Assembly: GCA_016870355.1 (NCBI GenBank)
Contig: VGBR01000003.1
Coordinates: 192,653 to 256,652 of the forward strand
Origin: Actinomycetota bacterium
GTDB lineage: Bacteria; Actinomycetota; Acidimicrobiia; IMCC26256; PALSA-555
Direction of reading: 5' to 3'
Length of the DNA: 64,000 nucleotides
Positions 8,873 to 59,269 of this stretch are shown piece after piece (position 1 is the stretch's first letter; every line of letters starts with the position of its first letter). The translations under genes and the position numbers were made by a program. The notes under the pieces are model-generated. The model was not told where the DNA came from. It made no database searches and worked only from the letters and a program-made list of their open reading frames with translations.

Positions 8873-8880
8873 ACCCCAGG

Positions 8881-8927
8881 TTTTGGCGTCGATAGCGTTC
8901 GCATAGCGACTGTTATCGACGCCAAAA
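8881..8927. repeat. TTTTGGCGTCGATA palindrome, copy 1 (rplA-rplJ gap)
   Basis: Perfect 14-bp inverted repeat, arms TTTTGGCGTCGATA (8881-8894) and its complement (8914-8927), with a 19-nt loop holding CGCATAGCGA. A second copy with identical arms, identical loop length and a near-identical loop core occurs at 50555-50613. No run of T follows on either strand, so it is not a standard intrinsic terminator. Confidence 0.85.
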
Positions 8928-45794: not shown

Positions 45795-46114
45795 CCGTCC
45801 CGCTTCGGGGCGAAGTCTGGTGGTGTGTTGAGCCCGCAGTCGGTCGACGTCCGGTCGTCGTCTTGACGAGGGACCCTGCGATCCCACGCCTGCGTCGAGC
45901 GTTGATCGCGCCATGTACGACGACGCTCCGAGGTCTTTCGACAGAGGTCGAGCTCGATCCTTCCGAAGAGCCAGTGCCTCGACTCAGCGCCGTCAACCTG
46001 GACTCCGTGCAATCCGTACCACTCGGGCTGTTGGTCGAACGCCTCGGGCGTCTGAGCGACGCACGCATGCGCGAGGTATGCGCCGCGCTTCAGGTCGCCG
46101 TCGACTGCCGCTGA
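45791..46114 (+). CDS. MazF-family toxin, second module
   Basis: A 107-residue protein starting at GTG 45791, overlapping the antitoxin remnant's TGA by 3 bases. GEVWWCVEP, GRRPVVVLTRDPAIPRLRRALIAPCTTTLRG, VPRLSAVNLDSVQSVPLGLLVERLGRLSDARMREVCAAL (in pieces) match actinobacterial MazF/PemK ribonucleases over the full length. The frame is intact. With a shortened antitoxin beside it, either the toxin is inactive or silenced, or another antitoxin protects the cell. Confidence 0.85.
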   Translation: MTVPLRGEVWWCVEPAVGRRPVVVLTRDPAIPRLRRALIAPCTTTLRGLSTEVELDPSEEPVPRLSAVNLDSVQSVPLGLLVERLGRLSDARMREVCAALQVAVDCR

Positions 46115-46212
46115 CGGCTGCGACCGCGGCGGACGTGCCTCGGGGCTGCCCTGGCGAACGGCTCGTAGTCGGCCAGAACGACTGCTGATCGGGACTCCCG
46201 AGGAGGCAGTCG

Positions 46213-46620
46213 ATGTCCGTCGAAGACGTGCGTGTCCAGATCCGACGTTTGCTCGAGGAGAAGCTCGGCGTGGACGAAGCGACCTACCTGATGGATCGTC
46301 CGGCCGGTGGGTGGTCCGACCTGGTGACGTGGTCAGCGCTCGATGCACGGCTCGATGCGCTGGAAGCGAGGATCGGCTCGCGATTCAGCGAGGTTGGCGC
46401 ACGGTTCAGCGAGGTTGGCGCACGGTTCAGCGAGGTCGGCGCACGGTTCAGCGAGGTCGGCGCTCGGTTCACCAAGCTCGAAGCCAGGATGGACGCGTTC
46501 GACGAGAAGCTCGTCGCACTCGAATCCCGGCTCATGGCCCAGATCGAGCGCCGGTTCCGCGTGCAGACCGCGTGGTTGGTCGTGGCGCTGGGTGTGTTCG
46601 CCGGGATCTTGAAGGCCTGA
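46213..46620 (+). CDS. Coiled-coil protein with heptad repeats and C-terminal membrane anchor
   Basis: A 135-residue protein of unknown role. N-terminal 40 residues (VRVQIRRLLEEKLGVDEATYLMDRPAGGWSDL) are globular-like. Then LDALEARIGS leads into four exact heptads RFSEVGA and further coiled coil (RFTKLEARMDAFDEKLVALESRL). The C-terminal AWLVVALGVFAGILKA is a membrane span. The design resembles small tail-anchored coiled-coil proteins often found near toxin or phage genes. ATG 46213 has GAGGAGG-type sequence upstream. Confidence 0.75.
   Translation: MSVEDVRVQIRRLLEEKLGVDEATYLMDRPAGGWSDLVTWSALDARLDALEARIGSRFSEVGARFSEVGARFSEVGARFSEVGARFTKLEARMDAFDEKLVALESRLMAQIERRFRVQTAWLVVALGVFAGILKA
46381..46464 (+). 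repeat. Four tandem 21-bp repeats in the coiled-coil gene
   Basis: Units at 46381-46401, 46402-46422, 46423-46443 and 46444-46464 of the form CGGTTCAGCGAGGTyGGCGCA, each encoding one heptad (RFSEVGA). A degenerate fifth unit follows. Near-identical DNA, not only protein, indicates recent slippage expansion. Confidence 0.92.
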
Positions 46621-46634
46621 CCGCGGGCTGCGAA

Positions 46635-48161
46635 TCAGCCCGGTTGCTCACCCAGGTACAGGAAGCCGTAGCCCTCGTCGCGGAATGTCAGGCCCGCCTC
46701 GCGCAGGGCCACGTCCCAGTCGCCGTTGACGGACGGGTCTGACTCCTCCATGCCGTGATCGGCGATCAGCACGAACGCGGTGTCGTCGAACACGCCGGCT
46801 TTCTCGACCGCGGTGAGGATCTCGCCCATGCGGCCGTCGCTGTCACGCACCGCGGCTGCGGCGACCTCGGAGTGCGGTCCACCCTCGTGCATCGCCGAGT
46901 CGGTGAGCGTGAAGTTGCAGAACATGAACCGAGGCAGCTGCGCGTACGACTCGTCGCGATACGAGCCACCCCAGATGCCGACGGCCTGATCGGCGCCCAT
47001 GTGGTCGACCACCGACGACCATGAGTAGTCCTTCGAAGGCCGGACGAACCGGTCAGTGGTGTGAGGCAGGCCCTCGGGTGACTTGGGGATCGGCGGCACG
47101 TCACCGCGGCGGAAGAAGTGGAACGTGGAGTAATCAGCGCCCAAGTCACACGGCTCGTTGACCGCGGCCGTGAACGCCCCGGGTTCGGCGCGGTGGACCG
47201 CGTCGTGGATGGAGTCGACACCGCTGACACACGACTCCATCGCCGTCGGCCAGGTCGCGTTCGAGTTCGTGATCACCTGCTGACCGGTGCGGCGGTCGAA
47301 CCAGGCGTTGTGCAGGATGCCGTGGTGTCCGGGCAGGCGACCCGTCACGACGGAGGTGTGGTTCGCCAACGTGACAGTGGGCATTCCCGCCATCGCGCCG
47401 TGCTGGTATGCGGTCCCCATCCCCATCAAGCGCGCGACGTTCGGCGCCTCGCCGCGCGCGGCCATGTCGTAGAGCACGTTCGAGTTCGTGCCGTCAAAGA
47501 GGAGCACCACGACGTGCTTCGCCGACCCTGCCGACAGATCGAGCGAGTCGCTGAGCACCACGCCGTCCTGACCATTGAGGTGGTTGCCATCGGTGTCGCG
47601 GTCGATACCCAGGAGCTCGAGCACGGTCGGCGCGATGTCGACCAACCGGGCCGATCGCGGGACCAGTCCGTCGTTGCGGACGCCTTTGCCTGCGAGCACC
47701 AGTGGCGCGCGGGCCTGGATGATCCCGAGCGAGCCGTGCTCGCCGCGGTGGCCGCCCTGGTCCTCCCAGTTGTGGTCGGCGGAGTGCAGCACGCACAGGT
47801 CGGGGGCAGCCGGGTGGTCGAAGAGCTGCGCGGTGTGGTCGAAGGCGTGCGGGTAGGCGTTGTCGCGCCGGCGCGGGTTCTTGTGCGCAACCTCTTCTTC
47901 CAACGGTACGAACCGGTCGGTCGACTGATCGGCGATGGGACTGGTGCCCTCCGTGTCGAGCACCTCGTATCCGCCGTTGCCGTCGCGCCGGAACTGCACC
48001 GAGCCCTCGGCCGACCGCGCCTCGTAGGCACCGTTTCGAGCGAGGAGCACCATGTCGACGATCGGCTCGAGTGCCGAGTCGGTGAGGATCGCGAGCGCCG
48101 CGTCGGCGTCGGCCTCGCACTCGGGTGTCAGCCAGGCCGGAGTCTGGTCCGTCAGCGCCAT
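46635..48161 (-). CDS. Alkaline-phosphatase-superfamily phosphodiesterase with permuted domain order
   Basis: A 508-residue protein. The second half has the type I phosphodiesterase/nucleotide pyrophosphatase core in normal order: metal Asp in VVVLLFDGTN (about 223), nucleophile Thr264 in MPTVTLANHTSVVTG, GHHGI, and ADHGMEESD near the end. The segment that normally closes this fold (GGHRGEHGSLGIIQARAPLVLAGKG, then RLVDIAPTVLELLGI) is instead at residues 136-186, before the core. So the order looks circularly permuted. Substrate unknown. ATG 48161 is chosen over one 27 bp upstream. Confidence 0.8.
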   Translation of the reverse strand: MALTDQTPAWLTPECEADADAALAILTDSALEPIVDMVLLARNGAYEARSAEGSVQFRRDGNGGYEVLDTEGTSPIADQSTDRFVPLEEEVAHKNPRRRDNAYPHAFDHTAQLFDHPAAPDLCVLHSADHNWEDQGGHRGEHGSLGIIQARAPLVLAGKGVRNDGLVPRSARLVDIAPTVLELLGIDRDTDGNHLNGQDGVVLSDSLDLSAGSAKHVVVLLFDGTNSNVLYDMAARGEAPNVARLMGMGTAYQHGAMAGMPTVTLANHTSVVTGRLPGHHGILHNAWFDRRTGQQVITNSNATWPTAMESCVSGVDSIHDAVHRAEPGAFTAAVNEPCDLGADYSTFHFFRRGDVPPIPKSPEGLPHTTDRFVRPSKDYSWSSVVDHMGADQAVGIWGGSYRDESYAQLPRFMFCNFTLTDSAMHEGGPHSEVAAAAVRDSDGRMGEILTAVEKAGVFDDTAFVLIADHGMEESDPSVNGDWDVALREAGLTFRDEGYGFLYLGEQPG

Positions 48162-48206
48162 CGGACTCAGGCTACCGGCGTCTCGCACTGCTGCCGATGG
48201 CGCCGA

Positions 48207-48236
48207 TTGCCTGAAATCACGCCGCTTCGGTAGGAT
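48207..48236 (+). promoter_or_regulatory. Candidate rplM-rpsI promoter
   Basis: TTGCCT (48207-48212), 18-bp spacer, TAGGAT (48231-48236). It gives a leader of about 60 nt that contains the hairpin at 48249-48270. Confidence 0.6.
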
Positions 48237-48248
48237 GGCGGGCCACGT

Positions 48249-48270
48249 TCGGGCCGGTCAGCCGGCCCGA
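48249..48270 (+). promoter_or_regulatory. Leader hairpin before rplM
   Basis: TCGGGCCGG (48249-48257) pairs with CCGGCCCGA (48262-48270) around a TCAG tetraloop, perfect 9 bp. No T-run follows. Autoregulatory L13 leaders are known in other bacteria; whether this is one is inference. Confidence 0.45.
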
Positions 48271-48305
48271 GCAGCCACATCCTCCTTTCTCTGGTGGGAA
48301 CACGC

Positions 48306-48758
48306 GTGCCGACCTTCCAACCCAAGCCCAGCGACATCGAGCGCGCCTGGCACGTCGTCGACGCTGATGGCGCGGTGCTCGGCCGGCTGGCGTCCGAGGT
48401 CGCCGTGGTCCTGCGGGGCAAGCACAAGCCGATCTGGGCGCCGCACGTCGACACCGGCGACCACGTCGTCGTGATCAACGCGGCCAAGCTCGACCTCAGC
48501 CTCCGCAAGCGCGAGCAGAAGCTCTACCGACGTCACTCCGGCTTCCCGGGCGGTCTGCGCTCGGAGTCGCTCGAGCACCTGCTCGCGCGCGACCCGGAGC
48601 GAGTGGTGCGCCTCGCGGTGAAGGGGATGCTCCCCAAGGGCCCGCTCGGACGCCAGATGCTGAAGAAGCTGAAGGTCTACCCCGACGCGACGCACCCGCA
48701 CGCCGCGCAGAAGCCGCAACCCCGTACACTGACGTCCACCACCAAGCGTTCCTCCTAG
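48306..48758 (+). CDS. rplM: Ribosomal protein L13
   Basis: A 150-residue L13, an early 50S assembly protein. [40 protein letters not shown] (in pieces), then [12 protein letters not shown], and [24 protein letters not shown] 48306 is chosen because GGTGGGA lies at a good distance; GTG 48294 is possible. rpsI follows after 16 bp, the usual pair. Confidence 0.98.
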
Positions 48759-48774
48759 GCGCCAAGGAGCACCG

Positions 48775-49167
48775 TTGCCGAAGCCGCTCATCCAGACGAC
48801 CGGTCGCCGCAAGGAAGCGGTGGCGCGCGCGCGCGTGCGCGCCGGCACCGGCAAGGTCGTGATCAACAACAAGCCACTCGAGCAGTACTTCACGATCCTC
48901 ACGCACCAGCAAGCTGCCACCGAAGCGCTGCGACTCACCGAGACGCGCGACGTGTACGACGTGGAGGCGTCGCTCGACGGTGGTGGCGTGAGCGGGCAGG
49001 CCGGTGCGCTGCGCCTCGGGATCGCGCGTGCGCTGGTTGCACTCGACGACGAGCTTCGACCGACATTGAAGAAGGCCGGGCTGCTCGTGCGCGACGCCCG
49101 CGAGAAGGAGCGCCGCAAGTACGGCCTGAAGAAGGCCCGCAAGGCGCCCCAGTACTCGAAGCGCTGA
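48775..49167 (+). CDS. rpsI: Ribosomal protein S9
   Basis: A 130-residue S9 whose C-terminal tail touches P-site t[35 protein letters not shown] (in pieces), [23 protein letters not shown], and the end [12 protein letters not shown] with the invariant C-terminal Lys-Arg. Start TTG 48775, with AAGGAG in front. glmM follows after 25 bp. Confidence 0.99.
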
Positions 49168-49192
49168 CGAGCGGATCGGGGCTCACCAGCCC

Positions 49193-50545
49193 ATGACACT
49201 CAAGTTCGGCACCGACGGCATCCGCGGCCTCGCGAACAGCGAGCTCACCCCGGAGCTCGTCACCGCGTTGGGACGTGTGCTCGCGCACGTCATGGGCACC
49301 GAGCAACCGTTCGTGATCGGACGCGACACGCGCCGATCGGGTCCGATGATCCAGGCTGCGATCGTCGCCGGATTGACTGCCGAGGGTGCGGAGGTGGAGC
49401 TCGCCGGGGTGCTCCCGACTCCCGGCGTTGCGCACCTCGCGAAGGAGCGTGGCGCGCCCGCCGCGATGATCTCCGCGAGTCACAACCCATACGAAGACAA
49501 CGGCATCAAGCTGTTCGCGCCCGGCGGTCGCAAGATCACCGAGGAGATGGAGCACCGCGTCGAAGCGGAGCTGCGCGAGCTCGCGATGGATGCGCCCGAA
49601 CCCGGCCCGGGTGGCGCGGGCATCGGTGTCGACCATCAGATGCAGAACCCGATCGACGAGTACGTCGGCCACGTGGTCGGGGCGCTCGAAGGCCGTCGGC
49701 TCGACGGGTTGAAGGTCGTGCTCGATTGCGGCAACGGCGCTGCGTTCCGCACCGCGCCCATGATCTTCAAGGAGCTGGGAGCTGAGGTCGAGGTGCTCAA
49801 TTCCTGGCCCGACGGCACCAACATCAACAAGGAATGTGGATCGACGGATCCGTCCGGTCTCCAGGAGGTGGTCGTCGCGAGCGGCGCTCGGGCCGGACTC
49901 GCGTTCGACGGTGACGGTGACCGCGTGGTCGCCGTCGACGAGCGCGGCGGCATCATCGACGGCGACCAGATCCTCGCCATCTGCGCGCTCGACATGAACG
50001 AACGCGAAGCGCTGCGCAACAAGGCCGTAGTCGCCACGATCATGTCGAACATGGGACTGCGGCGATGCCTGGCCGCGCACGAGATCGAGCTCGTCGAGGT
50101 CGACGTGGGCGACCGCAACGTCGTCGACGAGCTCGAGCGCCGGAACCTCGCGATCGGCGGCGAGCAATCGGGGCACATCATCTTCTCCGACCACTCCGTC
50201 GGCGCTGACGGTGCACTCACGGGCGCGATACTCCTCGACGTCGTCAACGGCACCGGCCACTCACTTGGCCTACTGGCTGGCGTGATGCAGAAGTTCCCAC
50301 AGGTGCTGCGCAACGTACGCGTGCGCGACCGCGCCGCGATCGAGAAGGACACGATCTTCTGGGAGGAAGCGCGTCAGATCGCCGTCGAGCTCCATCCCGA
50401 CGGCCGCGTGCTCGTGCGCCCATCGGGCACCGAACCGGTCGTGCGAGTGATGGTCGAGGCACCAAGTGTCGAGCGCGCCGAACTCGTGGCCGACCGACTG
50501 GTCGACCTGGTAGAGCGCGCCAGCTTCGCCCCACCCCCGGGATAG
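49193..50545 (+). CDS. glmM: Phosphoglucosamine mutase
   Basis: A 450-residue GlmM converting glucosamine-6-P to glucosamine-1-P for cell-wall precursor synthesis. Seen: FGTDGIRGLAN at the start, phosphoserine loop ISASHNPYEDNGIK (Ser near residue 100), Mg loop FDGDGDR, sugar loop GGEQSGHIIF and phosphate loop RPSGTEPVVRV. The next gene is glmS, which makes its substrate, but a large palindrome and a separate promoter lie between them. Confidence 0.98.
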   Translation: MTLKFGTDGIRGLANSELTPELVTALGRVLAHVMGTEQPFVIGRDTRRSGPMIQAAIVAGLTAEGAEVELAGVLPTPGVAHLAKERGAPAAMISASHNPYEDNGIKLFAPGGRKITEEMEHRVEAELRELAMDAPEPGPGGAGIGVDHQMQNPIDEYVGHVVGALEGRRLDGLKVVLDCGNGAAFRTAPMIFKELGAEVEVLNSWPDGTNINKECGSTDPSGLQEVVVASGARAGLAFDGDGDRVVAVDERGGIIDGDQILAICALDMNEREALRNKAVVATIMSNMGLRRCLAAHEIELVEVDVGDRNVVDELERRNLAIGGEQSGHIIFSDHSVGADGALTGAILLDVVNGTGHSLGLLAGVMQKFPQVLRNVRVRDRAAIEKDTIFWEEARQIAVELHPDGRVLVRPSGTEPVVRVMVEAPSVERAELVADRLVDLVERASFAPPPG

Positions 50546-50554
50546 GCCTCACAT

Positions 50555-50613
50555 CCCCCGTTTTGGCGTCGATAAGGTCCGCTGAGCGAGGCCTATCGAC
50601 GCCAAAACGGGGG
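50555..50613. repeat. TTTTGGCGTCGATA palindrome, copy 2 (glmM-glmS gap)
   Basis: A perfect 20-bp inverted repeat at 50555-50574 and 50594-50613. Its inner 14 bp are the same as at 8881-8927, and its 19-nt loop contains CGCTGAGCGA, differing at two positions from the loop core of copy 1. The outer 6 bp (CCCCCG) are specific to this copy. No T-run, so not an ordinary terminator. Confidence 0.88.
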
Positions 50614-50623
50614 GTTTGGGGCA

Positions 50624-50652
50624 TTTCCTGGCGACAGGTGCTCTCGTAGACT
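50624..50652 (+). promoter_or_regulatory. Candidate glmS promoter, near-leaderless
   Basis: TTTCCT (50624-50629), 17 bp, TAGACT (50647-50652). The glmS ATG at 50662 begins only 9 bases after the -10 box, so transcription would start about at the start codon. No ribosome-binding site is seen, consistent with a leaderless mRNA. Confidence 0.5.
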
Positions 50653-50661
50653 GGACGCTTC

Positions 50662-53600
50662 ATGTGCGGGATCATCGGGGTCGTTCGCCGTCGTTCGTCG
50701 CGCCTCGCGCCGGCGTTGGGGCCGCTGGTCGACGAGCTCGCCGCGGCAGTCACGAACCTGGCGGCTTGGAACGGTGACGTCCCCAGCCTGACCGACGCCG
50801 CGGCGGCGATCGAGCGAGTCGACGCTGCGTTGCGCGGCGTACCCGGTGTCACCGCGCTCCTGACTGACCGGCCGGGCGCGCTTGGCATCGACCACCACTC
50901 GGAGCAGCTTGCCGAGCTCCTCACCACGGCCGAGCGCCGGCTCGACCAGGACGCAGCGTCGTTCGAAGCCTCGAGCCTCGAAGCGGTGAACGCGGCGATG
51001 CTGCGGGCCAAGGATGCGGTGTGGGCGGTCCGCAACGACCGCTTGCGCAACGCGAGGGCAGTGGCCGACCTCGCCGGTGCCGACGCAACGCCAGCTGCCA
51101 TCGAGGCCTACACGTCGGTGCAGGTCGCGTTGTCAGCGCTCGATCGGCTCGAAGTACGTGGCCGCGACTCCGCCGGCGTCCACCTCTTGGTCCACGGCCA
51201 CGGCCTCGATTTCACCGACGCGGCCGTGCGCGGACTGATCGAGCGCCGCGCCGCCGACCCGCTCTTCGCTGACGGTGCCGTGCGCACACCTGAGGGGATG
51301 CTCTCGCTCGTCTACAAGGCGGCCGCCGAGATCGGTGAGCTCGGCGACAACGTGCGCCACCTTCGCAAGAGCATCGGTGACGACGAGCTGCTCAAGCTCG
51401 CGCTCGCGTCACCCGACGCGGAGGTCACGCTTCTCGGGCACACGCGCTGGGCGAGTGTCGGGATCATCTCGGAGCCGAACGCCCACCCGCTCAACCAAGA
51501 AGAGGACGGCCTCGTCGACGGGCCGTACGTCGCCGCCGCGCTCAACGGTGATGTCGACAACCATGCCGACCTCACGGTGCTCGAGGGCCTTGCGCCGCCC
51601 CCTGAGATCACGACCGATGCCAAGGTCATCCCCGCGCTCGTCTCGCGCAAGCTCGCAACGGGCAGCGACGCGACCCAGGCCTTCCGCGCCACGGTCGCCT
51701 CGCTCGAAGGATCCGTCGCCATCGGCGCGACGGCCGCTGCCGACCCCGGCAAGCTCTTCCTCGCACTGCGGGGAAGTGGTCAGGCGCTCTACGTCGGCAT
51801 GACCGAGGACGCGTTCGTCGTCGCGAGCGAGCCCTACGGCCTCGTCGAAGAGACGGCCACCTACGTGCGGCTCGACGGCGAGACGCCTACCGACCCCGCG
51901 CGCGCGGCCGCCACGCGCGGCCAGATCATGGTCGTCGACGCCGCGCGGGCCGGCGAGCTCGCGGGCATCACCCGTCTTGCCTACGACGGGACGGCGCTGC
52001 CCCTCACCGACGCCGACGTGCAGCACGCGCAGATCACCACCCGCGACATCGACCGCGGCGCGTATCCACACTTCTTGCTCAAGGAGATCTCCGAGGCACC
52101 CGACTCGTTCCACAAGACGATGCGGGGCAAGGTCGTCGACGAGGCCGGACGACTCCACGTCGCGCTCGGCCCCGACACCCTCCCATGGTCGGTGACCGAA
52201 CGGCTGCGTGACCGCACGATCCAACGCGTCACCGTGATCGGTCAGGGCACTGCCGCAGTCGCGGGTCAGAGCCTCGCGACTGCGCTCGAGCAGCTCGCTG
52301 GTGAGCGGCTCGTCGTTGAAGCGATCCCGGCCACCGAGCTCTCCGGCTTCGGCCTGCGCGCCGACATGTCCGACACGCTCATCATCGCGATCTCCCAGAG
52401 CGGCACAACCACCGACACGAACCGCACGGTCGACCTCGCCCGGGACCGGGGCGCCGTGGTGATCGCGATCGTCAACCGTCGCAACAGCGATCTCGTCGAC
52501 AAGTCCGACGGCGTCCTCTACACCTCCGACGGTCGCGACGTGGAGATGAGCGTCGCCTCGACCAAGGCGTTCTACGCGCAGATCGCCGCGGGCCATCTCT
52601 TGTCGGTTGCGCTCGCCGATGCGATCGGCGTGCTGGATCCTGACGAAGCCCACCGACGGCTGAGCGCGCTCCGCGAGTTCCCCGAGGCGATGCGCACGGT
52701 CGTCGGTCAGCGTGAGCACATCGGTGCGGTCGCCCAGCGGCACGTGCTCAGCAAGCGCTACTGGGCGGTGGTCGGCAACGGCGTGAACGCGATTGCGGCG
52801 CGAGAGCTGCGCATCAAGCTCTCGGAGCTGTGCTACAAGGCGATCGCCTACGACGTCACCGAAGACAAGAAGCACATCGACCTCTCGTCCGAGCCCCTCA
52901 TCCTCGTGTGCGCGGCCGGGCTCGTCGGATCCAACGCCGACGACGTAGGCAAGGAAGTGGCGATCTACCGCGCCCACCGGGCGTCACCGATCGTGATCGC
53001 CGACGACGGCACGCGATATCCGGCCGCGCTCGAGACCATCCCGGTCCCGAGCGTGCATCCCGACCTCGACTTCGTGCTGGCCACGGTCGCCGGTCACCTG
53101 TTCGGGTACGAGGCCGCGCTCGCCATCGACGCGTCGAGCCGGCCGTTGCACGATGCCCGCGCCGCGGTGGAGGCCGCGGCGTCTGGCGATCCGGCCGCGC
53201 TCCTCGACCGACTGGCACCAAGGCTCGAAGCACCGTCGCGGGCCTTCCATGACGGGCTGCGCGCTGGCACCTACGACGGCTCGCTCGAAGCGAGCACGGC
53301 TTCACGTGTCGGTTCACTGCTGCGATACGCGACCGGCGCGGTGTCGCTCGACTCCTACGAGATCGAGCACGGCAAGGTCGGGACGCCGTCGACGGTCGTC
53401 GAGGACCTCACGGCCGCGCTCACCAAGGGCATCGAGGAGCTCAAGCGCCCGGTCGACGCCATCAAGCACCAGGCCAAGACGGTCACGGTCGGCATCTCGC
53501 GCTCCGACGAGTCGCTGCTCCAAGCGCCACTCGTGCAGGCGGTGCTCGCGGCCGGCGCGCCGCGCGACGGGCTTAGCTACCGCGCGTTGCGCACGCTCGT

Positions 53601-54075
53601 CGATCTCGACCCCGCCATCGATGAGGTCACTGGGTACACGCGCTACCGCATCGAGGGCGACCTCGCGGCCGACACCGCCACGCTGCACGTCGTCGACCGT
53701 GGCGGCGTGGCCACTGGGCTCAAGTCGCGCACCGAGATCGACCCGACGCTCCGCGGCGCGAAGCACCGGGTGGCGACCCAACGTGACGTCACCGCGCTGC
53801 GCGGCGCCGATGACGGTCGCACGCTCGTGATCGTGCCCGAGGTGAAGCACAACCAGACGGTCGGGCTCACCCTGCTCCACGTGCGTTACGTCGGCACGCT
53901 GCCGGCCGAGACCATGCGCGCCGTCCTCCAGGGCTACCAGGGTCGCTACGGCGCCCTTCGGGACGCCGTCACCGAGACCGAGCCGAACTTCGACGACGGC
54001 GTCCTCTCTACGGTGCCGGTCGTCGAGCTCCTCACCGACCCGGTGAACGTGCTCGCTGAGCACTGGCGCCGGTAG
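50662..54075 (+). CDS. glmS: Oversized glutamine-fructose-6-phosphate aminotransferase (GlmS-like)
   Basis: GlmS makes glucosamine-6-P from fructose-6-P and glutamine. Standard GlmS is about 610 residues; this one is 1137. Nucleophile Cys2 in MCGIIGVV. RGRDSAG, normally near residue 26, is at 166-172 after a 150-residue helical insert; LGHTRWAS is at 258-265 and NGDVDNH at 295-301. Two SIS domains follow: GQGTAAVAG and ISQSGTTTDTN (about 527-586) with VASTKAF (631-637), then WAVVGNGVNAIAARELRIKLSEL (701-723). HQAKTVTVG near 936-944 matches the usual GlmS C-terminus, but about 190 extra residues follow. Likely the real GlmS because it neighbours glmM. Confidence 0.9.
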   Translation: MCGIIGVVRRRSSRLAPALGPLVDELAAAVTNLAAWNGDVPSLTDAAAAIERVDAALRGVPGVTALLTDRPGALGIDHHSEQLAELLTTAERRLDQDAASFEASSLEAVNAAMLRAKDAVWAVRNDRLRNARAVADLAGADATPAAIEAYTSVQVALSALDRLEVRGRDSAGVHLLVHGHGLDFTDAAVRGLIERRAADPLFADGAVRTPEGMLSLVYKAAAEIGELGDNVRHLRKSIGDDELLKLALASPDAEVTLLGHTRWASVGIISEPNAHPLNQEEDGLVDGPYVAAALNGDVDNHADLTVLEGLAPPPEITTDAKVIPALVSRKLATGSDATQAFRATVASLEGSVAIGATAAADPGKLFLALRGSGQALYVGMTEDAFVVASEPYGLVEETATYVRLDGETPTDPARAAATRGQIMVVDAARAGELAGITRLAYDGTALPLTDADVQHAQITTRDIDRGAYPHFLLKEISEAPDSFHKTMRGKVVDEAGRLHVALGPDTLPWSVTERLRDRTIQRVTVIGQGTAAVAGQSLATALEQLAGERLVVEAIPATELSGFGLRADMSDTLIIAISQSGTTTDTNRTVDLARDRGAVVIAIVNRRNSDLVDKSDGVLYTSDGRDVEMSVASTKAFYAQIAAGHLLSVALADAIGVLDPDEAHRRLSALREFPEAMRTVVGQREHIGAVAQRHVLSKRYWAVVGNGVNAIAARELRIKLSELCYKAIAYDVTEDKKHIDLSSEPLILVCAAGLVGSNADDVGKEVAIYRAHRASPIVIADDGTRYPAALETIPVPSVHPDLDFVLATVAGHLFGYEAALAIDASSRPLHDARAAVEAAASGDPAALLDRLAPRLEAPSRAFHDGLRAGTYDGSLEASTASRVGSLLRYATGAVSLDSYEIEHGKVGTPSTVVEDLTAALTKGIEELKRPVDAIKHQAKTVTVGISRSDESLLQAPLVQAVLAAGAPRDGLSYRALRTLVDLDPAIDEVTGYTRYRIEGDLAADTATLHVVDRGGVATGLKSRTEIDPTLRGAKHRVATQRDVTALRGADDGRTLVIVPEVKHNQTVGLTLLHVRYVGTLPAETMRAVLQGYQGRYGALRDAVTETEPNFDDGVLSTVPVVELLTDPVNVLAEHWRR

Positions 54076-54307
54076 AGGTTCGGGGCGGGTACACATCACC
54101 GGCTGAGCACGAAGTTCGACATCGACGCCCTGGTTGCGGCACGCCGCGCTTGGAATGGGACCCGGAGACGAACGAACCGCACCCGTGGTCGACCGAGCAC
54201 ACGCTCGCGCAGTTCGCCGAAGCAAACGAGCACTGCCGCGCTACGGCCATTTCCTGAACCGGGCGGTCGCGCTCGCGCGCTGCGCGCGTCACGGGCTGAC
54301 CCGTTCG
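54076..54307. other. Gap between glmS and the thioesterase, weak coding trace
   Basis: No gene can be called. One + frame ending at the TGA near 54257 reads LEWDPETNEPHPWSTEHTLA, then QFAEANEHCRATAIS, which looks protein-like, but it has only a TTG start and no ribosome-binding site. It may be a gene remnant. No promoter or terminator is evident. Confidence 0.3.
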
Positions 54308-54739
54308 TCAGCTCTTGGGCAGCTTGATGAGCACGGTGCCTTGCGCGGTGCACACCAGACGGCCGTCGTTGACGACGTCGATGCGCACGACGGCCGTGCT
54401 CTTCGTGAGTGACACCACGTTCGCGGTTGCCGCGAGCGTGCCGGTGGTGACGGGTGCGAGGTAGTTCAGCTTGAACTCGGTCGTCGCCGCCCATGCGCCT
54501 TTCGGGATGACCGGGTAGCAGACGGTCCCGAGCACGTGATCGCACAACGCGGCGATCACGCCACCGTGCAGGTTGCCGAACGGAGTGAGCAGCTCGTCGC
54601 GCACCTCGAGCTCGGCGCGCAGCACGCCGGCACCTACCTCGGTGTGACGGATGCCGAGATAGCCGATGATGCCAGGGCCGTCGGATGGTGCGTTCTCGAG
54701 GCCAGCCGCGACCTTCTCGTTGTACTGCGGGAAGTCCAC
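54308..54739 (-). CDS. Hotdog-fold thioesterase (PaaI/YdiI-like)
   Basis: A 143-residue single hotdog domain. The active-site helix segment FGNLHGGVIAALCDHVLG (around residues 58-75) and WAATTEFKLNYLAPVTTG are characteristic of acyl-CoA thioesterases of the PaaI group. The C-terminal strand pair (TAVVRIDVVNDGRLVCTAQGTVLI, in pieces) completes the fold. GTG 54739 is the only start near the beginning of similarity. Divergent from acpS with 42 bp between starts, so the promoters overlap. Confidence 0.85.
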   Translation of the reverse strand: MDFPQYNEKVAAGLENAPSDGPGIIGYLGIRHTEVGAGVLRAELEVRDELLTPFGNLHGGVIAALCDHVLGTVCYPVIPKGAWAATTEFKLNYLAPVTTGTLAATANVVSLTKSTAVVRIDVVNDGRLVCTAQGTVLIKLPKS

Positions 54740-54781
54740 GACTCGATCATGGCACTGCGGCGATGCCCGTATCGTTGGTGT

Positions 54782-55180
54782 GTGCACATCGTCGGTCTGG
54801 GCACGGATCTGGTCGAGGTTGCTCGCTTCCGGCTGGCCATGGAGCGCCGAGGCGAGCGACTGAACGAACGACTCTTCAGCGACGAGGAACGGGCATACGC
54901 CGCGAAGCAGAAAGACCCGGCCAAGAGCCTTGCGGCACGCTTCGGCGCGAAGGAAGCCGTGATGAAGGCGATGGGCGTCGGGCTGTGGAAGTTCAAGCTC
55001 CGTGACGTCGAGGTCGCGAAGGCCAAGAGCGGTGCACCGTCGGTGAAGCTGCACGGGCGCGCGGCCGAGATGGCGGCCGAGCGCGGCATCGTCGCATGGC
55101 AGCTCTCGCTCACCCACACCGAGACGACGGCGCTCGCAGTCGCCATCGCGATCGGGCGGAACCTGCCCGACGAGACCTGA
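54782..55180 (+). CDS. acpS: Holo-[acyl-carrier-protein] synthase
   Basis: A 132-residue AcpS that attaches the phosphopantetheine arm to ACP. Metal-binding Asp in IVGLGTDLVEVARF (residues 3-16) and the catalytic helix ARFGAKEAVMKAMGVGLW with its Glu; WQLSLTHTETTALAVAIA at the end. The start is GTG 54782, giving VHIVGLGTDLVEV. nnr follows after 1 bp, a common actinobacterial pairing. Confidence 0.96.
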   Translation: MHIVGLGTDLVEVARFRLAMERRGERLNERLFSDEERAYAAKQKDPAKSLAARFGAKEAVMKAMGVGLWKFKLRDVEVAKAKSGAPSVKLHGRAAEMAAERGIVAWQLSLTHTETTALAVAIAIGRNLPDET

Positions 55181-55181
55181 C

Positions 55182-56615
55182 GTGCTCCCGATCGTCACGC
55201 CGGCAGCGATGGCCGAGGCCGACCAGCGCACCATCGCGGCCGGCACTCCGATGGAAGTGCTGATGGACCGGGCCGGGCGAGCGGTCGCGTGGGAAGCACG
55301 CCAGCGGCTCGGCAACGCGTACGGCAAGCGAGTGGTCGTCGTGTGCGGCAAGGGCAACAACGGCGGCGACGGCCTCGTCGCGGCGCGCATCCTGCGCGGC
55401 TGGGGTGTGCGCGTCGACGTGTTCGAGTTGAAGGACGGCGTGCCCGAGCCCGCGCTCGACCGCACCATCGAGCGCGCCGATCTCATGATCGACGCGATGT
55501 TCGGCACCGGCTTCCGTGGCGCGCTCGAAGGTGATGCTGCGCTCGTGGCGCGCCGGAGCCTTGACCTTCCCACGCTCGCGATCGACATTCCGTCAGGCAT
55601 CGACGGCTCAACCGGCGCAGTGCAGGGCGACGCGGTGCGCGCTGTCGCAACCGTGACGTTCGCGGCGCACAAGCCCGGTCTCGTGTTCGAACCCGGTCGA
55701 GGCCACGCGGGAGACGTTCGAGTTGCCGACATCGGCATCGAGCTCACCGACGACGACCGGCGCGTCGGGCTCGTGACCGACACCGACGTACGTGGATGGT
55801 TGGCGAGCGTCGTCGAGACCGACACACACAAGTGGCGGTCCGGACTTCTCGTCATCGGCGGCTCGGGTGGGATGACCGGCGCGCCGATGTTGGTGAGCAC
55901 GGCCGCGATGCGCGTGGGCGCGGGGATCGTGTGGTGCGCGGTGCCCGGCGACGACATGGCCGCGCGCGCATCGGGCGGTGAGGTGATCACGAAGGCCATG
56001 CCCGCGAACGTTCACGGTGCTCTCACGGGCATCGCCGACGACGTGCGCGACGCGCTCGACCGCTTCCGTGCGCTTGCCGTCGGACCCGGCCTCGGCACGG
56101 ACGAAGCGACGACGGCCGTCGTCCGCGAGCTCGTGACCACAGTGGACGCGCCGCTCGTCCTGGATGCCGACGGGCTCAACGCGTTCGCGGGCCACTCGGC
56201 CGACCTCCGCGCGCGCAACGCCCCCACCGTCCTCACGCCCCATGAGGGCGAATTCGAGCGGCTGCTCGGCGATCAGGTCGGCGACGATCGCCTTGCCGCG
56301 GCCCGCCGCCTCGCCGACGCCACCGGCTGCGTGGCGCTGCTGAAGGGCCCCGGAACGGTCGTGGCCGAGCCCGGCGCGACCGGGCGCGTGGCCGTGAACG
56401 CAGTCGACGGGCCCTGGCTCGGCACCGCCGGCACCGGCGATGTGCTCACCGGGATCATCGCCGGGCTCCTGGCCCGGGGGCTCGGGGCGTTCGAGGCTGC
56501 AGCCGCAGGGACGCTGGTCCACGGGCTGTCCGCCGACGTCGCCGGGCATACTGGACTCGTCGCCGGCGACCTCGTGGCGGCGCTCCCCCACACCTTCCAA
56601 GCACCGGAGACTTGA
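55182..56615 (+). CDS. nnr: Bifunctional NAD(P)HX epimerase/dehydratase
   Basis: A 477-residue fusion that repairs hydrated NADH/NADPH. N-terminal epimerase (about 1-210) with VVCGKGNNGGDGLVAARIL and DIPSGIDGSTG. C-terminal ADP/ATP-dependent dehydratase (about 220-477) with VIGGSGGMTGAP, GLGTDEATTAV, LDADGLNAF, LTPHEGEFERL and the GTAGTGDVLTGIIAGLLA motif. GTG start 1 bp after acpS. Its stop overlaps the ATG of the CBS gene (TGATG). Confidence 0.97.
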   Translation: MLPIVTPAAMAEADQRTIAAGTPMEVLMDRAGRAVAWEARQRLGNAYGKRVVVVCGKGNNGGDGLVAARILRGWGVRVDVFELKDGVPEPALDRTIERADLMIDAMFGTGFRGALEGDAALVARRSLDLPTLAIDIPSGIDGSTGAVQGDAVRAVATVTFAAHKPGLVFEPGRGHAGDVRVADIGIELTDDDRRVGLVTDTDVRGWLASVVETDTHKWRSGLLVIGGSGGMTGAPMLVSTAAMRVGAGIVWCAVPGDDMAARASGGEVITKAMPANVHGALTGIADDVRDALDRFRALAVGPGLGTDEATTAVVRELVTTVDAPLVLDADGLNAFAGHSADLRARNAPTVLTPHEGEFERLLGDQVGDDRLAAARRLADATGCVALLKGPGTVVAEPGATGRVAVNAVDGPWLGTAGTGDVLTGIIAGLLARGLGAFEAAAAGTLVHGLSADVAGHTGLVAGDLVAALPHTFQAPET

Positions 56616-57085
56616 TGCCCGGGACCACCCTCGTCGGAGAGGTCATGACCAAGGACGTCGTCACCCTCCGGCCCGACCAGTCCTTCGAAGAAGCCGCAGA
56701 CACCCTCGCCGACAAGGCGATCGGCGCGGCGCCCGTCGTCGACGACACCGGCAAGGTCGTGGGGCTGCTGCGCGACGAAGACCTCATCGTGTCCGAGAGC
56801 AACCTGCACGTCCCCACGTGGCTCAACTTCTTCGGTGTTGACTTCCCGATGCCGGGCTCGCAGGAGCACTTCGAGGAAGAGCTGAAGCGCATGGTCGCCA
56901 CGACCGTCGACGGCCTGATGGAGACCGACTTCCCGGCCGCGTCGCCCGACGACACGCTCGCCAGCGTCGCGACGCGGATGCACGAGGACGACATCACCCA
57001 CATGCCCGTCATCGACGCCAACGGCGCGCTGGTCGGGATCATCTCCCGCGGCGACATCGTGCGCCGCGTCGCCGACACGACGTGA
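56615..57085 (+). CDS. Tandem CBS-domain protein
   Basis: A 156-residue protein made of two CBS modules: first about residues 1-60 (VGEVMTKDVVTLRPDQSFEEAADTLADKAIGAAPVVDD, in pieces), second about 95-156 (LMETDFPAASPDDTLASVATRMHEDDITHMPVIDANGALVGIISRGDIVR, in pieces). Such pairs bind adenine nucleotides or AdoMet and act as sensors. Between them a helical insert VPTWLNFFGVDFPMPGSQEH is typical of a CBS subgroup. No catalytic domain is attached. Coupled to nnr by TGATG. Confidence 0.9.
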   Translation: MPGTTLVGEVMTKDVVTLRPDQSFEEAADTLADKAIGAAPVVDDTGKVVGLLRDEDLIVSESNLHVPTWLNFFGVDFPMPGSQEHFEEELKRMVATTVDGLMETDFPAASPDDTLASVATRMHEDDITHMPVIDANGALVGIISRGDIVRRVADTT

Positions 57086-57101
57086 GGGTGGCCGACACCA
57101 C

Positions 57102-58250
57102 GTGACCCCGTCTGCATCGGCCGCGCGCCCGGGCTACCGGCCCGCATGGGCGGAGGTCGACCTCGACGCCGTCCGCCACAACGTGCGCTCGCTTGCGAGC
57201 GTTGCTGCACCCGCGCGCTTGCTCGCGGTCGTGAAGGCCGACGCGTACGGGCATGGCGCGGTGCGGGTCGCGCAGGCCGCACTCGACGCGGGTGCCGAGT
57301 GGCTCGGTGTGGCGCTCGCCGAAGAGGGGATCGAGCTGCGTGAGGCGGGAATCGACGCGCGCGTGCTGATCCTGTCGCAGCCACCTGCCGCGGCGGCCGC
57401 CGCGATCGTCGAGCACGGGTTCACGCCGGTCATGTACACGAACGACGGAGTGGACGCGCTCGCCAAGGCCGTGGCCGACGCGGGCGCCGAACCGCTCCGT
57501 GTCCACGTGAAGGTCGACACTGGGATGCACCGCGTGGGTTGCAGCCCCGAGGAGACCGCCGCGCTGATCGCGCACATCGACGCGCGCCCCGAGATCGACG
57601 TCGAAGGGGTCTGCACGCACCTTGCGGTCGCCGACGTTCCCGACGATCCGTACAACGCTGAGCAGCTCGATCGCTTCGACGACGTGCTCGCCGCCCTCGG
57701 TGACCGCGCGAACGAGCTCATCGTGCACGCCGCGAACTCGGCGGGAGCGATCGCGCACCCGCGCGCCCGACACGACTTGGTGCGCTGTGGCATCGCCATG
57801 TACGGGATCCCGCCCTCACCGGACCTTGCCGGCAGCGCGGATCTCCAGCCGGTGTTGTCCATCAAGGCGCAGGTCTCGCACGCCAAACCTCTTGCCTCGG
57901 CCGAAAGCGTGTCGTACGGGCGCCACTACCGCGCGCCTGGCGACACGCACGTCGTCACCGTGCCGATCGGGTATGCCGACGGGGTGCCCAGGAACCTCGG
58001 GTTGACCGGCGGTGAGGTGTTGATCCGGGGTCGTCGGTTCCCGATTGCGGGCAGCGTCACGATGGATCAGCTGGTGGTCGACCTCGGTCCCGACGGGCCG
58101 ATGCTCGATCCAGATGAGCCCGTCACGCTGCTCGGCCGCGACGGTGACGAGGAAGTCACCGCCACGGAATGGGCGGAGCGACTCGGCGTGATCCCCTACG
58201 AGGTGACGACCAGGATCGGGCCTCGGCTTCCCAAGGTGTACGTGCCGTGA
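57102..58250 (+). CDS. alr: Alanine racemase
   Basis: A 382-residue PLP enzyme producing D-alanine for peptidoglycan. PLP lysine Lys45 in LAVVKADAYGHGAVRV; substrate region VKVDTGMHRVG; the catalytic Tyr is in the C-terminal beta-barrel (RCGIAMYGIPPSP region and VSYGRHYRA). AWAEVDLDAVRHNVR at residues 15-29 is the family N-terminus. GTG 57102. The next hydrolase gene overlaps by 4 bp (GTGA). Confidence 0.97.
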   Translation: MTPSASAARPGYRPAWAEVDLDAVRHNVRSLASVAAPARLLAVVKADAYGHGAVRVAQAALDAGAEWLGVALAEEGIELREAGIDARVLILSQPPAAAAAAIVEHGFTPVMYTNDGVDALAKAVADAGAEPLRVHVKVDTGMHRVGCSPEETAALIAHIDARPEIDVEGVCTHLAVADVPDDPYNAEQLDRFDDVLAALGDRANELIVHAANSAGAIAHPRARHDLVRCGIAMYGIPPSPDLAGSADLQPVLSIKAQVSHAKPLASAESVSYGRHYRAPGDTHVVTVPIGYADGVPRNLGLTGGEVLIRGRRFPIAGSVTMDQLVVDLGPDGPMLDPDEPVTLLGRDGDEEVTATEWAERLGVIPYEVTTRIGPRLPKVYVP

Positions 58251-59269
58251 GCGCGGGAAAGAAGGCGCTGAAGGCCGCGGGCGTCGGGCTCGGTCTCGCC
58301 GCGGGCCTGGCGGGCGCGGGCTACGTCACCCAGAGGGCCGTGCTGCGCGGGCTGCGCAGTCGCCCCGATCCCGACGCCGGCCACCTTCCGCCGCTGCCGC
58401 TCGACGACGTGCGCCATCTCGAGAGCCACGACGGCGGCACGATCTACGTCATCCAGGCGGGACCACACGACGGCACGCCGATCGTGCTGCTGCACGGCGT
58501 GACGATCGACTCGCGGATCTGGGTGAAGCAGCTCGACGCGCTGCCGCGGCTCGGCTTCCGTGTGGTCGCGTTCGACACGCGTGGGCACGGCAGCTCCAAG
58601 TGCGGCGACTCCGGCCATTCGATCGAGAACCTCACGTTCGACGTGCGCACCATGCTCCAGGAGCTCGATCTGCACGACGCCATCCTCGTCGGGCACTCGA
58701 TGGGTGGCGTCGCGGTGCAGGCGTTCGCATCGCAGCTCACCGCAGACGCGCACGAGCATGTGCGCGGGCTCGTGCTGCTCTCGTCGCTGGCCAAGACCCA
58801 GGTGAGCGCGGCCCGCAGGCTGCGCGCGCTCACCGAGAGCATGTCCGAACGATTCGACTTCGCCCGGATCATGTCGAACCACGATGTCGGCACGATGCTG
58901 GCGCGACTCGGGTTCGGTCGCGATCCGCAGGCAAGTCACGTCGAGCTCGTTCGGCAGATGCTCGCAGAGTGCTCGGCGGAGACGAGCCGCGACGCGCTCA
59001 GCGTGCTGCTCGCGATGGACCTCACACCTCACCTGGAGCAGATCGATCTCCCCACACTGATCATCTGCGGGTCGGCCGACATGCTCACGCCCCGCTTCGA
59101 GTCCAAGCGCATCGCCCGACTCATCCCCGGCGCGCGCATGGTGATGATCGAAGGCGCGGGGCACACGATCATGCTCGAGCGTCCCGACGAGCTCGAGGAG
59201 GTGCTCGTGGACTTCTCGCGCGAGCTCGGCGTGTCACCGAGCATCCATCGGGACGCCGCGGCCGGTTGA
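58247..59269 (+). CDS. Membrane-anchored alpha/beta-hydrolase
   Basis: A 340-residue alpha/beta-hydrolase. The N-terminal AGVGLGLAAGLAGAGYVT may be a membrane anchor. Core motifs: LLHGVTIDSRIW (oxyanion), VVAFDTRGHGSSK, nucleophile Ser in LVGHSMGGVAVQAF, Asp in ICGSADMLTPR and His in GAGHTIMLERP. The alr-hydrolase-tsaE order is conserved in many Actinobacteria, but its function there is not established to my knowledge. GTG overlaps the alr stop. Confidence 0.9.
   Translation: MSAGKKALKAAGVGLGLAAGLAGAGYVTQRAVLRGLRSRPDPDAGHLPPLPLDDVRHLESHDGGTIYVIQAGPHDGTPIVLLHGVTIDSRIWVKQLDALPRLGFRVVAFDTRGHGSSKCGDSGHSIENLTFDVRTMLQELDLHDAILVGHSMGGVAVQAFASQLTADAHEHVRGLVLLSSLAKTQVSAARRLRALTESMSERFDFARIMSNHDVGTMLARLGFGRDPQASHVELVRQMLAECSAETSRDALSVLLAMDLTPHLEQIDLPTLIICGSADMLTPRFESKRIARLIPGARMVMIEGAGHTIMLERPDELEEVLVDFSRELGVSPSIHRDAAAG

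Follow-up and report, generated by a model that had tools for sequence, protein, structure and literature searches.

GlmS catalyses the step that yields the first dedicated cell-wall precursor of bacteria, and it serves as a textbook case of ammonia channelling. Here we ask why this essential enzyme of cell-wall sugar synthesis is nearly double its usual size across a large actinobacterial group, which reaction the enlarged protein performs and what its added parts may do. The case analyzed lies in the window (the whole stretch of 64,000 nucleotides under study), where an open reading frame with an ATG start at positions 50662-54075 of the forward strand encodes a product of 1137 aa beginning MCGI, which we call the long form. 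Its parts are the following, with the basis of each assignment in brackets:

50662..54075, + strand: long-form glmS, whole gene (1137 aa)
50662..50703, + strand: residues 1-14, first strand with the nucleophile Cys2, equivalent to E. coli Cys1 (Cys in 48/48 long forms; invariant in alignment A1)
50704..51111, + strand: insertion 1, residues 15-150, a helical block that follows the first strand and precedes the first core helix (alignment; model helices 19-34, 40-57, 59-68, 70-100, 103-138)
51157..51177, + strand: R-loop RGRDSAG, residues 166-172, R166 being E. coli Arg26 and R168 standing in place of Tyr28 (alignment)
51193..51402, + strand: insertion 2 region, residues 178-247, with short additions 178-202, 209-216 and 235-247 around the invariant GELGDN 225-230 (alignment)
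51403..51876, + strand: remainder of the glutaminase domain, residues 248-405, with the Q-loop HTRWASVG 260-267, W263 being Trp74 (Pfam, PDB match, alignment)
51877..52071, + strand: interdomain linker, residues 406-470, somewhat longer than in E. coli (alignment)
52072..52641, + strand: SIS domain 1, residues 471-660, with SQSGTTTDT 578-586 (Pfam SIS 521-649; PDB match; Foldseek)
52642..53124, + strand: SIS domain 2, residues 661-821, with E715, K719, E722 and H738 equivalent to E. coli E481, K485, E488 and H504 (NCBIfam, PDB match, Foldseek, alignment)
53125..53448, + strand: insertion 3, residues 822-929, helical, between SIS domain 2 and the catalytic tail (alignment; model helices 803-928)
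53449..53493, + strand: catalytic C-tail, residues 930-944, PVDAIKHQAKTVTVG, internal rather than terminal, K939 being E. coli Lys603 (alignment; pLDDT <50 at 942-948)
53494..54072, + strand: C-terminal domain (CTD), residues 945-1137, a putative sensor with a GAF/PAS-like fold (model, Foldseek; absent in variant G511)

Architecture of the long form

When aligned with GlmS from E. coli and with 18 normal GlmS proteins of actinobacteria, the long form showed about 541 added residues, the main blocks being 15-150, 178-202, 209-216, 235-247, 407-419, 822-929 and 945-1137; besides the three large blocks 15-150, 822-929 and 945-1137, about 70 of the added residues are scattered. As in bacterial GlmS (E. 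coli, TIGR01135, PDB 1jxa/2j6h), the chain runs from an Ntn glutaminase domain with an N-terminal Cys nucleophile to two SIS domains, with the order of domains unchanged. Pfam detected only GATase_6 (256-390) and SIS (521-649), the second SIS domain being backed by the NCBIfam glmS alignment, which reaches residue 821, and by the predicted model. The top PDB sequence match was E. coli GlmS (query 238-820 against 48-589 of the chain), and the best NCBIfam families were GlmS models, scoring 256 bits where the cut-off is 381 and 236 bits where it is 418 (in the case of TIGR01135, 235.9 bits versus 418.05). A sequence-only reading of this DNA, which had recognized a GlmS of 1137 residues keeping Cys2, RGRDSAG, GHTRW (259-263) and both SIS domains, is borne out by these results, with HQAKTVTVG located at 936-944; it had correctly pointed to extra residues near the N-terminus and after the tail, 193 of them in the latter place, but had overlooked the 108-residue block 822-929.

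The long form departs from bacterial GlmS in being about 540 residues larger, in scoring far under the family cut-off, in having its C-tail inside the chain and in the replacements Y28R, T76S, H77V, N600H and L601Q. The tail itself aligns without gaps (VDQPRNLAKSVTVE in E. coli, VDAIKHQAKTVTVG in the long form). Eukaryotic GFAT-1 and GFAT-2, which are regulated enzymes likewise larger than E. coli GlmS and the top fold matches of the long form, differ from it in that their extra loops lie in the glutaminase region and the inhibitor UDP-GlcNAc is bound in the isomerase domain (PMC7000685). The full-length model (mean pLDDT 90.3, pTM 0.81) yielded only GFAT-1 and GlmS among the Foldseek matches listed, with TM values on target length of 0.79 for 2j6h and 0.85 for the isomerase 1moq. 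Insertions 1 and 3 were predicted as long helices, and the end of the tail (942-948) was among the least certain parts of the model. PDB sequence searches returned only coiled-coil noise for insertion 1 and no convincing relative for insertion 3.

Catalytic residues and the ammonia gate

Examination of the catalytic positions (E. coli numbering) showed that Cys1, R26, R73, W74, H86, N98, G99, D123, S347, Q348, S349, T352, E481, K485, E488, H504 and K603 are kept in all long forms that have letters at the site, so that the isomerase/synthase residues E481, K485, E488 and H504 and the tail lysine K603 are all retained; human counterparts of the catalytic residues have been listed elsewhere (PMC7000685). 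In the glutamine pocket (R73, W74, T76, H77, H86, N98, G99, D123) six residues are retained, T76 and H77 being replaced throughout the clade by S265 and by V, I or M, respectively. The remaining clade-wide changes are Y28 to R168 and N600-L601 to H936-Q937, Q937 being invariant among long forms. The Trp74 equivalent of hGFAT2 contacts Tyr35, Leu675, Ala676 and Arg33 (PMC7948480), which we equate with E. coli Y28, L601, A602 and R26. Because Y28R and L601Q sit at these contact positions, the packing around the ammonia gate seems to have shifted along with the added blocks, and these changes may be a functional co-adaptation.

Identity of the enzyme

The gene occupies the standard actinobacterial glmS slot (rplM-rpsI-glmM-glmS-acpS-nnr-alr), beside glmM as is usual for glmS in actinobacteria, and most long-form loci lie in the exact slot that normal glmS holds in the same phylum. 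GlmM is thus encoded next to it in the window's genome, and GlmU is present there as an intact, separate protein. The long form is the sole GlmS candidate in this genome (96% complete), where the remaining GlmS-like matches are partial (<=708 bp) and are read as PurF/AsnB-type amidotransferases. Normal GlmS over the cut-off was found in 160 of 296 genomes of the class and the long form in 112, a count that leaves out a chance match in G451; it is present in 51 of the 58 genomes of the same order. When the two tables were compared by eye, both forms together were seen in none of the 296 genomes, and none of the 112 long-form genomes had an additional match at the level of normal GlmS. The question of a coexisting normal copy, raised by the sequence-only reading, is hence answered in the negative for the window's genome and the class sample. 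In a genome of another class (G043), normal GlmS lies in the operon slot and the long form elsewhere (L132, L113); contamination is not the obvious reason, because the tetranucleotide make-up of the two contigs is nearly identical (r 0.987).

Being the only copy, lying in the glmS slot, keeping the catalytic residues and, within the class sample, never occurring together with normal GlmS, the long form is, judging from sequence and gene order, very probably the genome's own GlcN-6-P synthase, which would convert glutamine and fructose-6-phosphate into GlcN-6-P and glutamate. The alternative that its reaction has changed, for example toward a different sugar phosphate or nitrogen donor, could draw on the clade-wide alteration of T76 and H77 in the glutamine pocket, on a core identity to normal GlmS of just 28-37% and on the missed NCBI glmS cut-off. 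We nevertheless regard it as improbable, since each of the observations that identify the enzyme, including the retention of the catalytic residues of both sites, speaks against it, as does the presence of GlmM and GlmU, which need GlcN-6-P.

Distribution and phylogeny

A scan of public genomes gave at least 571 related loci. Among the best 80 of these, all carry Acidimicrobiia or other actinobacterial labels except three (L034, L051, L066), which are labelled otherwise and may be misclassified. Complete relatives measure 1117-1182 aa, and the 84 near-full-length proteins of alignment A1 align end to end, the others being 44-68% identical to the window's protein; an assembly or frameshift artefact is thereby ruled out. 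One apparently split gene, in the MAG G419, is explained by a lone frameshift at residue 742. A profile of the CTD run over 297 genomes of the phylum found 27 real carriers, belonging to the same class and to families f20, f27, f47 and f50 of other classes, and in the class carriers the CTD is part of the long protein wherever contig and reading frame permit. The lineage survey suggested by the sequence-only reading therefore places the long form in this class and in some families of other classes. The plasmid collection contained normal GlmS only.

In the tree of core columns, 48 long forms make up one clade on a long stem, with the normal GlmS proteins of the same class grouping elsewhere; the node uniting the long forms has a modest support of 0.65, and where it belongs among normal forms is uncertain. 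Because the long forms of other classes nest inside those of Acidimicrobiia, the tree suggests that the long form was transferred outward. We found no published description of a long-form GlmS in the open-access papers searched, which is not proof of absence; the doubt raised earlier, that this form might already be well documented, gained nothing from that search. Automatic annotation may report GlmS or GlcN-6-P synthesis as missing in such organisms, 136 of the 296 class genomes having no match over the NCBI glmS cut-off.

The C-terminal domain and its natural loss

Modelled alone, the CTD gave a pLDDT of 94.7 and a pTM of 0.90, in agreement with the earlier suggestion that the C-terminal part is folded. 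The predicted order of elements (helix-b1-b2-helices-b3-b4-b5-helix) fits the strand-helix order of GAF/PAS small-molecule sensors, and the Foldseek matches in the PDB were mainly GAF domains, Cache and PAS sensors, plus L-GDH180. Since these matches are weak (none with E <0.001, the best E being 0.0028; TM on query length between 0.20 and 0.48), we use the GAF/PAS label tentatively. The CTD is unlike these sensors in having no detected sequence relationship with them and TM values of at most about 0.45 on target length; searches of Pfam and of PDB sequences for relatives of the window's CTD gave none, GAF and PAS families included, and Pfam run over the CTDs of 84 long-form members gave one PAS_3 match, judged chance. 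The best TM (0.48 on query length) belongs to L-GDH180 (PDB 7jsr), likewise an actinobacterial enzyme of nitrogen metabolism far larger than its usual relatives. A sequence relationship between the CTD and the L-GDH N-terminus was rejected, a shallow profile comparison with three L-GDH N-terminal parts from the class showing no signal. A stand-alone CTD was likewise discarded, the domain occurring only within the long form in the phylum and class surveys; profile matches of about 20 bits in G451, G521 and G293 fall in proteins read as methylmalonyl-CoA mutase and are due to chance. A viral structure library yielded nothing. The polar residues R994, R1023, K1034, D1051, R1053, E1060, K1062, Y1092, R1095 and E1105 are near-invariant in the CTD.

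One genus of family f101 presents three states. G521 encodes the full-length long protein. G511 encodes a protein of 1038 residues that stops directly after the tail (HQAKTVTVGISRR-stop), with nnr immediately next. Of the 220 core positions that are near-invariant, this protein retains 210, and the tail and insertions 1-3 have lost none. Because this genome has lost exactly the CTD and kept the catalytic residues, the CTD is probably not needed for catalysis and is probably regulatory; the CTD-less state is known from this one genome, the f101 genomes being probably MAGs. The third genome, G451 (98% complete), has another gene between glmM and nnr (L180, G451:C10:40000-52000) and no detectable GlmS of either form, making dependence on amino-sugar salvage possible.

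Proposed control through the tethered tail

Taking these results together, a GlcN-6-P synthase of the cell that is controlled intramolecularly through its tethered C-tail is the joint reading that we favour, with moderate confidence. Catalysis would most likely proceed as in E. coli GlmS, with ammonia released by Cys2 passing the gate at Trp263 to a SIS site closed by the Lys939 tail. Because additions flank the tail in the sequence, namely block 822-929 before it and the 193-residue domain after it, the tail would be held on both sides, whereas in ordinary GlmS it is a free end. Added helical parts and a sensor-like end placed around the moving tail suggest a built-in control that ordinary GlmS lacks. 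On this scheme the CTD, as a GAF/PAS-like sensor, would bind a small molecule (perhaps UDP-GlcNAc, perhaps some other signal relating to the cell wall or to nitrogen) and in its ligand-bound state would move or pin the tail, thus setting substrate closure and ammonia transfer. We hold the separate parts of this scheme with different confidence. That the CTD is a regulatory, perhaps ligand-binding, domain seems to us about evenly balanced, and that it acts on the adjoining tail somewhat less probable; the full allosteric version, in which a sensor without sequence kin in known families responds to a metabolite and, by pulling on the tail, gates sugar binding as well as the ammonia channel, is a tentative proposal. 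Sensor role, ligand identity and control through the tail are all inferred here, and UDP-GlcNAc is a guess by analogy with GFAT (PMC7000685) and Bacillus GlmR (PMC7525490). The new control anticipated by the sequence-only reading is hence plausible, given weakly GAF/PAS-like folds and one loss confined to the CTD, but remains at the level of inference. The weak fold matches, T76S and H77V in the glutamine pocket, the continued presence of GlmR in this genome and the origin of the CTD-less variant in a single MAG count against this reading.

GlmR (YvcK) of Bacillus offers a parallel in its UDP-GlcNAc-linked control of GlmS (PMC7525490), and differs from the CTD in being a separate protein, one still encoded in the window's genome alongside the long form. 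The idea that the CTD generally replaces GlmR was rejected, since this genome and many others with the long form encode GlmR as well. No GlmR/YvcK was seen in the genomes sampled from f4, f8 and f99, all of them long-form; most other long-form families have it.

The main rival to a regulatory CTD is an architectural or partner role, in which the added blocks hold the enzyme in another kind of dimer or in a higher oligomer, or bind GlmM from the neighbouring gene for direct handover of GlcN-6-P, and the CTD is no sensor. The predicted long helices of insertions 1 and 3 would be typical of assembly surfaces, and glmM is the upstream neighbour of the slot-located copies; the copies in family f50 and in G043, however, lie away from glmM, and the CTD is rich in near-invariant polar residues and finds its closest folds among sensors, all of which makes this explanation rather unlikely in our judgement. 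Far less probable still is a bifunctional protein in which the CTD acts as a second enzyme. A compact fold with invariant charged residues would suit an enzyme, yet the leading fold matches include few enzymes, which align by way of folds of the sensor type (for example, the GAF fold of type II fRMsr). In addition, an intact GlmU is encoded separately, and the phylum and class surveys never showed the CTD outside the long form. Returning to control through the tail, tags at either end of GFAT-1 disturb its activity (PMC7000685). A clade carrying 193 residues past the catalytic tail is a natural test of tail gating of the channel, with the CTD-less relative in G511 as a ready comparison.

Upstream region

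The sequence-only reading had stated that the glmS ribozyme is absent, and indeed neither it nor any other Rfam family was found within 46000-58500. This ribozyme is missing in many bacteria, and its absence says little. Between glmM and glmS the window holds a perfect palindrome (50555-50613, about 20 bp per arm, fold z -8.5), and no comparable stem was found in the leaders of about 100 relatives. We rejected this 5' leader hairpin as a regulator of glmS, the hairpin being a dispersed repeat: its arm GTTTTGGCGTCGATA recurs 17 times across the genome, for the most part in pairs separated by 38 nt (control 0), also at window 8876-8894, and the whole looks like a dispersed REP-like element.
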